A DNA stretch of 7,751 nt from Clostridia bacterium (GTDB lineage: Bacteria; Bacillota; DSM-521; Neomoorellales; SLTJ01). Below the pieces are notes generated by a model that saw nothing but the letters and a program-made list of their open reading frames with translations, did no database searches and was not told where the DNA came from. Within the stretch, counting starts at the first letter, position 1; the number at the start of each line of letters is the position of its first letter. Positions 4,110 through 7,751 of this stretch are shown here, piece after piece. Position numbers and translations under genes: made by a program. Location: contig JACIYD010000062.1 in assembly GCA_014360105.1 (NCBI GenBank), forward strand, positions 1 through 7,751. The letters are read 5' to 3'.

Positions 4110-5667
4110 GCGCGTCTACATCTTTGATACTACCCTGCGCGATGGTGCCCAATCACCCGGGGTTTGCCTCAACGTCCAAGAAAAGCTGGAGATCGCGCGG
4201 CAGTTGGCCAGATTGAACGTGGACGTAATCGAGGCCGGTTTCCCCGCCTCCTCCCCTGGCGAGTTTGAGGCGGTGCGGACGGTGGCGGAAAAGATTTCCG
4301 GGCCCACCATTGCCGGTCTGGCGCGGGTGGCCCTGTCCGACATCGATACCTGCTGGCGGGCAGTGAAGGCGGCGCGGCGGCCGCGCATCCACACTTTTAT
4401 CGCCACCTCCGACGTCCATCTTAAGTACAAGTTGCGGATGACGCGCGAGCAGGTGTTGGAAGCGGTGGACCGCGCGGTGCGGCACGCCAAGAACTATTGC
4501 GAAGACGTAGAGTTCTCGCCGGAGGACGCTTCCCGCAGCGACCTGGCTTTTCTCATCCAGGTGCTTACCGTGGCCGTGGAAGCGGGGGCCACGGTGTTAA
4601 ACATCCCGGATACGGTCGGCTACGCTACGCCGGAGGAGTTCGCCGCCTTTATCCGGGAGATCCGGCGCGGCGTGCCCCATCTGGACCGGGTCATCTTGAG
4701 CGTGCACTGCCATAACGACCTGGGTCTCGCCGTAGCCAATTCGCTGGCGGCGGTGCAGGAGGGCGTACAGCAGGTGGAGTGCACGGTCAACGGCATCGGC
4801 GAACGCGCGGGCAATACCGCGCTGGAGGAAGTGGTGATGGCTCTTTACACGCGCCGCGACATCTACGGCGCGGAAACGGCCATCCGTACCGAGGAAATCT
4901 ACCGCACCAGCCGCCTGGTTGCAAGCCTTTCCGGCATGCCGGTCCAGTATAACAAGGCGGTGGTCGGCCGCAATGCCTTTCAGCACGCTTCCGGCATCCA
5001 CCAGGACGGCGTGCTCAAAGAGCGTACCACCTACGAGATCATGAACGCCGCGACCATCGGGCTGGTGACGGAGCATATCGTTCTGGGCAAGTATTCCGGG
5101 CGGCACGCCTTCCGGCACCGCCTGGAGCAGCTTGGTTTTCATCTTGACGATGAGGAGTTGGAGCAGGCCTTCTTCCGCTTTAAAAACCTGGCCGACCGCA
5201 AGAGCGAGATTACCGATCGTGACCTGGAAGCGATCGTCAGGCACGAGCTCAAAACCATCCCGGAGAAGTTTCAGTTGGAGAGTATGCACATCTCGTCCGG
5301 CACGAACGTGGTGCCAACGGCCACCGTCGGCCTGAAAGTCAACGGCACCCTGCTTCAGGAGGCGGCCTGCGGCGAGGGTCCGGTGGACGCCACCTTCAAG
5401 GCCATCGACAAGATTACCGGCCTGCCGGTAGCCCTGCGCAATTATACGCTCAACGCGGTAAGCGGCGGCAAGGATGCGATGGGCGAGGTAACCGTCCACG
5501 TCGAATACGAGGGTCGCGGCTTCCTGGGACGGGGCTTGAGCACGGACATCATCGAGGCGAGCGCCAAAGCCTATATCAACGCCTTGAACAAACTGGCCTT
5601 TGAGTACGGCGACGCGGTGCTTGCCGGTAAATGTACACGAGAGATACAGCAGGGGGGCAGCGATTGA
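4102..5667 (+). CDS. leuA: 2-isopropylmalate synthase
   Basis: Condenses acetyl-CoA with 2-ketoisovalerate to 2-isopropylmalate, the committed and normally leucine-inhibited step of leucine synthesis. The 521 residues comprise a TIM-barrel catalytic domain (1 to about 270) with [12 protein letters not shown] at 9-20 (metal ligand D14), HCHNDLGLA at 202-210 (metal ligands H202 and H204) and [11 protein letters not shown] at 233-243; a linker with [13 protein letters not shown] at 291-303; and a C-terminal LeuA allosteric domain from about 390, with [13 protein letters not shown] at 424-436. The presence of that domain favours leucine feedback control and argues against a homocitrate synthase. 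Full length, with [11 protein letters not shown] near 45-55, favours LeuA over citramalate synthase. Residue 16 is Ala where LeuA usually has Glu. GAGGAGG at 4089-4095 lies 6 bases before the ATG; the start overlaps ilvN by 8 bases. Confidence 0.96.
5651..5657 (+). promoter_or_regulatory. Ribosome binding site that decides the leuC start
   Basis: AGGGGGG inside the last codons of leuA sits 6 bases before TTG 5664. It lies downstream of the ATG at 5631, so it cannot serve that codon. This supports the TTG as the leuC start. Confidence 0.65.
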
Positions 5668-6932
5668 CTTTGCGCCAGACCATTACGGAAAAAATCCTGG
5701 CGGCGCACGCCGGGCTGGAGGAAGTACGACCGGGGCAATTGATTAACGCCAGGGTCGACCTGGTCTTGGGTAACGACATCACGGCTCCCCTGGCCATCCA
5801 GGAGTTTCAAAAGCTTGGTCTTGGCCGCGTCTTCGATCCGGAGCGGGTGGTACTCGTACCGGATCACTTCACGCCCAACAAGGACATCCCCTCGGCCGAG
5901 CAGGCCAAACTGGTGCGCGACTTTGCCCGGGAGTACGGTATCACCCACTATTACGAGGTAGGCCGCCTGGGCATCGAGCACTGCCTCCTCCCGGAGGAAG
6001 GCCTGGTGCTGCCGGGCGACCTGGTGATCGGGGCTGACTCGCATACCTGTACCTACGGCGCGCTGGGGGCTTTTGCTACCGGCATCGGCAGTACCGATAT
6101 GGCGGCGGCGCTGGCCACCGGCGAGGCCTGGTTCAGGGTACCGGAGACCCTGAAACTGGTTTACTACGGTTCCTTGCGGCCCTGGGTGGGCGGCAAGGAT
6201 CTCATCCTTTACACCATCGGCAAGATCGGCGTGGACGGAGCGCGTTACATGGCGCTGGAGTTTACCGGCGAGACCATCAGCCGCCTTTCCATGCCCGGCC
6301 GCTTTAGCATGGCCAACATGGCCGTGGAGGCGGGGGCCAAGAACGGCATTTTCATCCCCGACGCGGCGACCATCAACTACGTGGAAAAGCGGGCGAAACG
6401 GCCTTATCGCCTTTTTACCAGCGATGCCGACGCCGCCTACGCGGAAGTCATCGAGATCGACGTCCGTGGCCTGGAGCCGCAGGTCGCCTACCCGCCCTCG
6501 CCGGAAAACGTCCATCCCGTAAGCGAGGCGCGTGGCATCGAGATCGACCAAGTGGTCATCGGCTCCTGTACCAACGGCTGGCTGGAGGACTTGCGCCAGG
6601 CCGCTCAGGTGATGCGCGGGCAGCGGGTGCATCGGCGGGTGCGCTGTATCGTCATCCCGGGCACGGCCAGGGTGATGCGCGAGGCGATCAAGGAAGGCCT
6701 CATCGACGTTTTCCTCGAGGCCGGGGCCGCGGTGAGCACGCCCACCTGCGGGCCGTGTCTCGGAGGCCATATGGGTGTCCTCGCCCGGGGGGAAAGGGCC
6801 GTGGCCACCACCAACCGTAATTTCGTCGGGCGCATGGGCCACGTGGAGAGCGAGGTCTACCTGGCCAATCCGGCGGTCGCGGCCGCTAGCGCCGTCTTGG
6901 GCCGCATTGCCAGTCCGGAAGAGCTGGTATGA
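5664..6932 (+). CDS. leuC: 3-isopropylmalate dehydratase, large subunit (HacA/LeuC2 type)
   Basis: Catalytic large subunit of isopropylmalate isomerase, a [4Fe-4S] aconitase-family enzyme that works only with LeuD to convert 2- to 3-isopropylmalate. From TTG 5664 it has 422 residues, the length of the compact clostridial/archaeal class rather than the longer E. coli LeuC. Visible motifs: [11 protein letters not shown] at 7-17, [25 protein letters not shown] near 123-147, cluster cysteines C302 in GSCTNG and C362/C365 in [10 protein letters not shown], and [10 protein letters not shown] near 384-393. TTG is chosen because the protein then starts (M)[11 protein letters not shown], as relatives do, and overlaps the leuA stop by 4 bases (TTGA). 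The ATG at 5631 would add 11 atypical residues. Residue 306 is Trp where GSCTNGR normally has Arg. A homoaconitase role is possible from the family alone, but the leu context argues for leucine synthesis. Confidence 0.95.
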
Positions 6933-7126
6933 ACGGCCTACGCCATCGGGGCCGCAAGACCACGCCGCTGCGGGGGCAGGCCTGGGATTTGCAAGACTAC
7001 CTGGCAAGATGGGGGCGGGTTTGGCGTATCTCGATTTTTGCCGGGCGGTCTTTGGCTGCCAGCGCAAGACTTTTAGCCTCATGGCGAGCCGGGCTTTACG
7101 TGCAAGCGACAGCGCAAGCCTACGAA

Positions 7127-7140
7127 GGCCATGGACGGCC
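7127..7140 (+). other. Copy 1 hairpin with AUGGAC hexaloop
   Basis: GGCC 7127-7130 pairs with GGCC 7137-7140 around the six-base loop ATGGAC, which contains ANGGA. The stem is short (4 bp) but all G-C. The same hairpin occurs in copy 2 with different flanks. Confidence 0.55.
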
Positions 7141-7144
7141 ACCA

Positions 7145-7184
7145 GCTCCCGCGGCGCCAGGGATGGCGCGCACGAGCCGGGAGC
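7145..7184 (+). other. Copy 1 two-tier hairpin with AGGGAU hexaloop
   Basis: The inner stem GCGCC 7154-7158 / GGCGC 7165-7169 presents the loop AGGGAT. The outer stem GCTCCCG 7145-7151 / CGGGAGC 7178-7184 is a perfect 7-bp helix, with an asymmetric internal loop of 2 and 8 bases between them. It lies 4 bases after the AUGGAC hairpin. It has no T-run after it, so it is not an intrinsic terminator. Confidence 0.65.
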
Positions 7185-7378
7185 CCGCTGAAGTACGAGG
7201 CTCGCGGCGACATCGGTCCACCGGGTTGCGGTCGCGGGAGCAAACTTAGGCCTAGCCCCAGAAACTGGAATTTCGGGGGAGTACCCCACGGGGCGCGGCC
7301 GCACAAACGAAGGCGGGAAATTGCAGGGGGCAGGCCTGGGATTTGGTCCAAGCGACCTGGCAAGATGGTGGATAACCA

Positions 7379-7388
7379 GCGTTAACGC
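7379..7388 (+). repeat. Perfect 10-base palindrome specific to copy 2
   Basis: GCGTTAACGC lies in the region that differs between the two copies. It is short and may be chance; no regulator is suggested. Confidence 0.35.
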
Positions 7389-7412
7389 GGCCGAGGGCGG
7401 AGGCGGGCCGGA

Positions 7413-7426
7413 GGCCATGGACGGCC
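7413..7426 (+). other. Copy 2 hairpin with AUGGAC hexaloop
   Basis: GGCC 7413-7416 and GGCC 7423-7426 enclose ATGGAC, identical to the copy 1 hairpin. Its 3' arm can alternatively join a 7-bp hairpin at 7421-7437, so the two folds exclude each other. Confidence 0.5.
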
Positions 7427-7431
7427 GAAGC

Positions 7432-7461
7432 GGCCGTGGCGCCAGGGATGGCGCCTCGGCC
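7432..7461 (+). other. Copy 2 long hairpin with AGGGAU hexaloop
   Basis: GGCCG 7432-7436 pairs with CGGCC 7457-7461, then comes one T-T mismatch (7437/7456), then GGCGCC 7438-7443 pairs with GGCGCC 7450-7455 around the loop AGGGAT. Eleven pairs in all. The inner part and loop match copy 1, while the outer stem is made from different bases. It lies 5 bases after the AUGGAC hairpin. Confidence 0.65.
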
Positions 7462-7608
7462 TGGTAGCCCGCCGGAGCAGGAGGCTCGCGTGTTACGCTG
7501 GTCCACCGGCTTGCGGTCGCGGGAGCAAACCCAGGCCTACACCAGAAACTGGCATTTTCGGGGGGAGTACCCCACGGGGCGCGGCCGCACAAACGAAGGC
7601 GGGAAATT

Positions 7609-7620
7609 ACGCCTGGGAAA
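7609..7620 (+). repeat. Possible remnant of a third element copy
   Basis: After copy 2 the sequence ACGCCTGGGAAA recalls the start of a unit (GCAGGCCTGGGATTT), following the same GGGAAATT end. Only about nine bases correspond, so this is a weak call. Confidence 0.25.
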
Positions 7621-7622
7621 TA

Positions 7623-7632
7623 GAGGGGAAGG
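7623..7632 (+). promoter_or_regulatory. leuD ribosome binding site
   Basis: The purine-rich run GAGGGGAAGG ends 8 bases before the leuD ATG. Because leuC stops 708 bases upstream, leuD must be translated independently from this site rather than by coupling. Confidence 0.7.
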
Positions 7633-7640
7633 CAACGGTC

Positions 7641-7751
7641 ATGCGGTTTGAAGGACGCGTCTGGAAATTCGGGGACGACATCGATACCGATGTTATTATT
7701 CCGGCTCGCTACCTGAATACTACCGACCCGGCGGTTCTGGCCCGCCACTGC
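7641..7751 (+). CDS. leuD: 3-isopropylmalate dehydratase, small subunit, N-terminal fragment
   Basis: The first 37 codons of the swivelling-domain subunit that completes isopropylmalate isomerase with LeuC; the gene runs off the window. Residues 10-29 ([20 protein letters not shown]) are the family hallmark, with the [10 protein letters not shown] strand and the YLNT substrate-recognition loop at 24-27. The compact start [13 protein letters not shown] is typical of the partner of HacA-type LeuC proteins. Archaeal-type homoaconitase small subunits share the fold, but the operon context favours leucine synthesis. Placing it 708 bases after leuC is unusual for subunits needed in equal amounts. 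Confidence 0.93.

Follow-up and report, generated by a model that had tools for sequence, protein, structure and literature searches.

A dispersed repeat with a predicted two-hexaloop RNA tip between leuC and leuD: an outer stem supported in a sister genus and not borne out by the local copies

The segment between leuC and leuD in this genome raises the question of whether a hairpin found there twice has kept an outer stem through selection for structure. The window, by which we mean the whole 7,751-nt stretch of DNA analyzed here, carries leuC and an open frame from 7641 that we take to be leuD from its first residues. A repeat occurs twice in the approximately 700 nt from the leuC stop (6932) to the leuD ATG (7641), each time in the orientation of the genes (Table 1). 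A sequence-only reading had proposed that one helix around the second hairpin (hairpin 2, loop AGGGAT) was rebuilt from different bases in the two copies. Its letters and coordinates are correct, as GCTCCCG and CGGGAGC in copy 1, and GGCCG and CGGCC in copy 2, are present and complementary around the inner hairpin. The interpretation itself is partly supported: it is right for the family of elements to which the repeats belong and is not borne out by the two window copies. A coding origin of the repeats was rejected, as seven frames were compared with Pfam and leuC alone gave a match. A 725-codon open frame on the minus strand (window 5571-7748), antisense across leuC and both repeats, has no Pfam match and is likely a by-product of composition.

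Table 1. Features of the leuC-leuD segment, in window coordinates.
Feature	Position	Strand	Details and basis
leuC	5631..6932	+	Longest frame; later start 5664 possible; Pfam Aconitase 6.9e-100 over 5664-6932
leuD start	7641..7751	+	ATG at 7641; read from sequence
Repeat copy 1	6972..7279	+	Chimera; repeat comparison
Copy 1 hairpin 1	7127..7140	+	GGCC / loop ATGGAC 7131-7136 / GGCC; pair probability 0.86 within 6972-7278
Copy 1 left outer arm GCTCCCG	7145..7151	+	Sequence; low predicted pairing
Copy 1 hairpin 2 inner stem GCGCC/GGCGC	7154..7169	+	Loop AGGGAT 7159-7164; sequence
Copy 1 right outer arm CGGGAGC	7178..7184	+	Sequence; variants in own copies mostly uncompensated
48-nt unit, first copy	7275..7322	+	100% identical to 7561-7608
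Repeat copy 2	7326..7564	+	Intact palindromic rod; type B, tip type II
Copy 2 helix below tip, GGCGGGC	7402..7408	+	Partner GCCCGCC 7467-7473; predicted fold
Copy 2 hairpin 1	7413..7426	+	GGCC / loop ATGGAC 7417-7422 / GGCC; pairing probability 0.04
Copy 2 left outer arm GGCCG	7432..7436	+	Sequence; pairing probability 0.04
Copy 2 hairpin 2 inner stem GGCGCC/GGCGCC	7438..7455	+	Loop AGGGAT 7444-7449; sequence and fold
Copy 2 right outer arm CGGCC	7457..7461	+	Sequence; pairing probability 0.04
48-nt unit, second copy	7561..7608	+	Repeat comparison

The chimeric copy 1 has type-B-like outer arms (6972-7015 and 7215-7279) between which sits the 5′ half of a different sub-type, and a decayed end of this inner sub-type lies at 7022-7057, where the end motif has 4 mismatches in 36 positions. 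The segment 7322-7562, containing copy 2, has a predicted fold of -147.4 kcal/mol (z -7.83), and copy 1 folds less strongly (z -2.97; one shuffle in 100 folded as well). The best predicted fold of copy 2 contains neither hairpin 1 nor the outer stem, the alternative to hairpin 1 being 2.3 kcal/mol better, while the outer stem of copy 1 has a predicted probability of about 0.05-0.06 when the head is folded alone and of 0.0 within 6972-7278. Both outer stems of the window are minor folds in these predictions.

A search of the window's genome (G000, an assembly of 2.29 Mb in 590 contigs) with the 83-nt tip, in which 40 of 58 candidates were scored, found 41 matches; a tip model built from the two hairpins only, the outer stem being left out, found 45 at E<=0.001. 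These copies are of type I, with the left arm GCTCCCG, or of type II, with the left arm CGGCCG. The helix below the tip, GGCGGGC/GCCCGCC, is kept in type II copies, including copy 2 of the window, and type I has another 5′ strand at this position; CGGGAGC, the right arm of copy 1, is also found in most type II copies, where it is without its GCTCCCG partner. We aligned 26 of the 30 retrieved copies, omitting the near-duplicates L017 and L018 and the truncated L030 and L040. In this alignment the CGGGAGC of copy 1 stands opposite TGGTAGC in copy 2, and the CGGCC of copy 2 stands opposite the GAGCC region of copy 1, so that the right arms occupy non-homologous positions and are not one helix rebuilt from different bases. 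The difference between the arms is accounted for by the two haplotypes together with two natural chimeras of types I and II (L028 and L035). The pairs of the hairpin 2 inner stem were kept in 96.8% of cells across the G000 copies, and one pair of the copy 1 outer stem was unpaired in 15 of 25 distinct rows. Covariation, assessed for three helices together, was not beyond chance, since four of the five measures were reached by 63-155 of 500 shuffles; the fifth, the covariation score, was reached by 28 of 500. Exchanging arms between copies left the hairpin energy almost unchanged (-23.2 for cognate arms, n=26; -23.1 for swapped arms, n=646). The claim of a rebuilt stem fails in G000.

These observations bear on the possibility that the outer stems of the window copies are chance or relic pairing between GC-rich haplotypes, with no present function, which we consider slightly more probable than its opposite. 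The frequently broken pair, the arm swap that costs nothing and the low predicted pairing probability all argue for it, as does the lack of any match to csrA (PF02599) or fliW (PF02623) in G000, a 97.4% complete assembly. It must nonetheless contend with the perfect complementarity of the named arms in both copies and with the fact that copy 2 belongs to the sub-type nearest to the sister genus described below. Chance or relic pairing is compatible with the docking of CsrA that we propose for the element.

A tip search over 61 genomes (G000 and 60 relatives), in which strict filters were used and at most 84 candidates were scored per genome, found matches in two of them, G000 and G002, the latter from another genus of the same family. 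In G002, where 150 of 4610 candidates were scored, the matches numbered 52 at E<=0.001 and 69 at E<=1, and 66 of these 69 copies were retrieved. Most of the 30 copies that were folded share one rod of about 230 nt: a long helix joins its ends, further helices follow inside, and a closing helix leads to a three-way tip that bears the two hexaloop hairpins. The exceptions were L046, which had been excised with wrong boundaries, and L058 and L064, which folded differently. We then aligned 48 of the 66 copies and projected onto them the structure of the single copy L077; 88.3% of cells paired compared to 82.8 +/- 0.3 in shuffles, and double changes were present in 36 of 80 pairs compared to 22.6 +/- 2.3 (0 of 500 shuffles were as high). 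The 233 double-change cells, which were tallied per cell and not per event and mark a few sub-families, compare with 88.4 +/- 9.7 in shuffles and with 29-66 when the partners were slid by 1-3 columns. In a home-made, R-scape-like test (a tree, parsimony, substitutions moved at random and 50 null sets), three of all G002 column pairs passed the tree-based null, each of them a pair of the structure: columns 141-171 and 146-167 belong to the hairpin 2 outer stem, and the third pair belongs to the terminal helix. The helix equivalent to GGCGGGC/GCCCGCC of copy 2 (helix 7) showed little covariation, with 94.7% of its cells paired. Furthermore, cognate arms folded at -27.7 (n=64 of the 66 copies) and swapped arms at -24.6 (n=3882). 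Since covarying pairs lie in this stem and its cognate arms fold better than swapped ones, the sequence comparison supports selection on the hairpin 2 outer stem in G002. Selection for a structure, as originally read from the two window copies, is therefore well supported in G002 and fits the outer stems seen in other phyla, but is not found among the G000 copies. The absence of covariation over many copies, named at the outset as telling against such a stem, was observed in G000 and not in its relative G002.

The loops of the tip point to a possible ligand. The high-affinity site of CsrA/RsmE is described in PMC4005645 as a hexaloop ANGGAX placed directly on a stem, exemplified by ACGGAU in the hcnA site. 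All four loops of the window fit this rule by sequence, the folding of hairpin 1 in copy 2 being doubtful. Among the distinct tips of G002, ANGGAN was present in 46 of 56 for hairpin 1 and 55 of 56 for hairpin 2; the A.GGA. positions were 0.973 fixed, against 0.953 for the stems and 0.826 for other tip columns, and loop positions 2 and 6 were free (majority 0.638). The G000 loops were intact in 31 of 42 tips for hairpin 1 and in 35 of 42 for hairpin 2, one of the 35 being a five-letter loop. Intactness was lower than in G002 for hairpin 2 (p 0.019) and for both loops together (25 of 42 versus 46 of 56, p 0.021). Both loops were intact in 9 of 12 G000 copies with good ends, 6 of 13 with intermediate ends (including the five-letter loop) and 6 of 12 with no ends, a split over the 37 of 45 copies with enough flank that is too small to be firm. 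In G002, csrA adjoins fliW. The less intact loops of G000, a single genome, fit a relaxation after the loss of CsrA. The difference between the two genera in how often the hairpin 2 loop reads AYGGAY may reflect lineage history rather than decay.

From the covariation in G002, the loops that follow the ANGGAX rule and an architecture matching that of the Rfam family TwoAYGGAY (RF01731), we propose that the window copies belong to a dispersed repeat whose predicted RNA is a rod of about 250 nt, with a tip of two ANGGAN hexaloops likely docking one CsrA dimer; we hold the arguments for and against this proposal to be evenly balanced. Dozens of copies are spread across two related genera, mostly outside called genes. 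With an unconstrained gene finder, the tip lay inside a called frame in 8 of 34 G000 and 17 of 63 G002 copies, leaving the core outside called frames in 26 of 34 and 46 of 63, respectively. Frames cover 81% and 84% of these loci and most cores are nevertheless outside them, indicating that the copies avoid genes.

Across 398 genomes of the phylum, the two-hairpin pattern was found in 19 and the reversed control in 1, with CsrA encoded in 291. CsrA was carried by 17 of the 19 genomes with the pattern versus 274 of 379 others (p 0.12) and, when at least two pattern matches were required, by 15 of 16 genomes, G000 being the exception, versus 276 of 382 others (p 0.08). The co-occurrence of the element with csrA is weak. 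CsrA was also present in 20 of the 25 genomes reached by the first pattern, and G061 has no CsrA, yet shows 28 matches to RF01731 at E<=1, none of them over the cut-off. The orientation of the copies to their neighbors, counted with a home-made gene finder instructed to keep the element gene-free, was ++22, --16, +-15 and -+9 in G002 (62 classified of 63) and ++13, --5, +-6 and -+6 in G000 (30 classified of 34). Given this near-neutral orientation, transcription of many copies may fail to cover the ANGGAN strand.

The repeats could alternatively be MITE-like selfish DNA whose palindrome matters as DNA, for instance as transposase ends or a cruciform, with paired changes that arise not from RNA function but by template-switching correction of inverted repeats or from a few source lineages. 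We regard this as possible and rather unlikely. Part of the copies end in the inverted motif TATCCCCA, followed by G or C and then TTT, whose distance to the tip is nearly fixed (about 90-99 nt ahead of it, 83-88 nt behind it), in keeping with such an origin, and the end-motif pattern had 34 and 27 matches in the two genomes versus 0 for the reversed control. Near-identical copies, copies at contig ends, the nearly neutral orientation and the confinement of the double changes to a few sub-families point the same way. On the other hand, DNA mobility does not require the conservation of A.GGA. loops on one strand, and in other phyla the same tip sits on different rods with different ends. No transposase was identified, and no clear target-site duplication was seen by eye in the element sequences inspected. 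Terminal inverted repeats are themselves present in part of the G000 and G002 copies, the window having the decayed end in copy 1 only; 28 of 48 G002 copies were without them (at least 8 mismatches in sum) and 12 had them. Such end-less copies retain the rod and the loops, against the selfish reading: pairing was 87.9% in them versus 87.8% in copies with ends, and the two loops were kept in 24 and 27 of the 28, with the proviso that all copies were found via their tips and that the end-less ones may stem from a lineage in which such ends were never present. A larger insertion sequence with ends in common was rejected as the source of three contig-end matches (L260, L262 and L264), which are ends of the element itself. 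Two G002 loci, L266 and L252, have end motifs without the twin-hairpin tip, L266 with a perfect terminal helix; these headless rods are perhaps deletion derivatives. The simplest reading that these data suggest is MITE-like spread followed by retention of the RNA shape.

That the repeats are a processing or stability element of the leu operon, setting the leuC to leuD ratio through hairpins that RNase III cleaves or that stop exonucleases, would suit two very stably folding copies in gene sense inside an operon segment, but is very improbable, since copies lie elsewhere between genes of every relative orientation and the conserved loops across phyla would be left unexplained.

Under the CsrA-docking proposal, a copy co-transcribed with its neighbors, here as part of a leuC-leuD mRNA, would bind a CsrA dimer through its two loops, and many copies would jointly titrate CsrA or mark their host messages. 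The element would have spread in a MITE-like manner via its terminal inverted repeats and then have been kept for its RNA shape. The lineage of the window would have lost csrA and fliW, leaving its copies as relics with drifting arms and loops, and such drift would be why the outer stem looks rebuilt in G000 without real covariation. We tentatively extend this to a mobile element with an RNA handle as cargo that builds a distributed CsrA sponge, G000 being a natural experiment in which covariation and loops are lost together with csrA and fliW; we would not expect this wider version to hold in full.

The exact two-hairpin pattern is also found in at least 106 stretches from other hosts, including Pseudomonas, Halopseudomonas, Pseudomaricurvus, Lysobacter, Desulfobulbales, Lachnospiraceae and Thermincola. 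It was present in 0 viral contigs, and on this basis a viral origin of the repeat was rejected. Among 21 chosen loci, the search pattern itself dictates the loop and inner stem of hairpin 2, and the predicted outer stems differ: GGCATAT/ATATGCC in L158, GTCATCA/TGATGAC in L143, GCCTTG/CAAGGC in L138 and CCGCCC/GGGCGG in L223. One outer stem, GTCGC/GCGAC, is common to several Desulfobulbales loci, and L139, L142 and L235 fold otherwise. The rods of Pseudomonas and Halopseudomonas are near perfect over about 30 bp, with sequences that differ in L139, L142 and L147. Divergent pairs of copies (minus, then plus), a few hundred nucleotides apart, were seen at L189, L194, L207, L147 and L138 in Lachnospiraceae, Pseudomonas and Pseudomaricurvus, and at L189 and L194 each paired copy points at a divergent gene. 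In G232, G209 and G275, from one family of the phylum, overlapping pattern matches represent three consecutive ANGGAN hairpins in each element rather than two.

Rfam assigns L143 and L158 (Lachnospiraceae) and L138 (Pseudomaricurvus) to TwoAYGGAY (RF01731, clan CL00106, gathering cut-off 43 bits), and the other 11 of 14 loci fall below the cut-off. Over 16 genomes, the RF01731 model found a match at E<=1 in 12 and exceeded the cut-off in five, with 33 matches over it in G085 among the matches listed. The best scores were 26.2 bits in G000, 28.6 in G002 and 29.9 in G001, so far under 43 bits that we rejected membership of the window elements in RF01731; an Rfam search of the window gave no match to this or another family at the repeats up to E 10. 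These elements may be relatives of TwoAYGGAY, perhaps working alike, rather than members. The 29.9-bit match (G001:C38:6959-7116) lies in a second sister genus that has csrA and fliW and no tip match, and may be a further diverged copy of the element. When six element loci were compared with Rfam, the sole match over the cut-off was a glmS ribozyme (82.8 bits; L044:1274-1421, minus strand) that adjoins one G002 copy.

TwoAYGGAY was proposed in 2014 to bind CsrA, validation being left open in that account (PMC4333381). In the open-licence literature searched, we found no test of this proposal and, under CsrA, hexaloop repeats, sponges, miniature inverted repeats and Clostridia CsrA-FliW, no description of the present element. 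We regard the element as a diverged variant within a kind of RNA that is known and unvalidated. Its branch, in which G000 has 45 and G002 has 52 tip matches at E<=0.001, is too diverged for the Rfam model, and a sister pair of which one has csrA-fliW and the other does not makes the TwoAYGGAY-CsrA proposal testable by comparison and a simple binding assay. The findings suggest that, outside Proteobacteria, CsrA might be antagonized by many small scattered elements rather than by a single sRNA.

Intergenic repeats of the MITE, BOX and ERIC type are short, palindromic, dispersed and modular. The present element shares these properties and has inverted ends on part of its copies, but it differs from them in the conservation of its loops on one strand and in the compensatory changes along its rod. 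The CsrA-sponge sRNAs CsrB, CsrC, RsmX, RsmY and RsmZ hold CsrA dimers by paired GGA hairpins (PMC4333381, PMC4383904). The present element likewise has paired GGA hairpins, by which CsrA dimers would be bound, whereas those systems place many sites on one sRNA and this element has two sites per rod, scattered over the genome, with no csrA found in G000. The resemblance to TwoAYGGAY is closest: both have a rod closing a three-way tip, two hairpins, GGA in the hexaloops and many copies per genome, and the tips, as putative homologues, align weakly (28.6 bits for L046, 26.2 bits for L123). Of the three-way junction, the rod and closing helix of copy 2 are predicted, with hairpin 1 as a minor fold, and that of copy 1 in part; the covariation in G002 supports this junction. 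Unlike TwoAYGGAY, the present element has a short hairpin 1 (4 bp), terminal inverted repeats and another rod sequence. With respect to the AYGGAY loops that give the family its name, ATGGAC in hairpin 1 of the window fits and AGGGAT in hairpin 2 does not, while the hairpin 2 loop is AYGGAY in 49 of 56 distinct tips of G002 versus 4 of 42 in G000.
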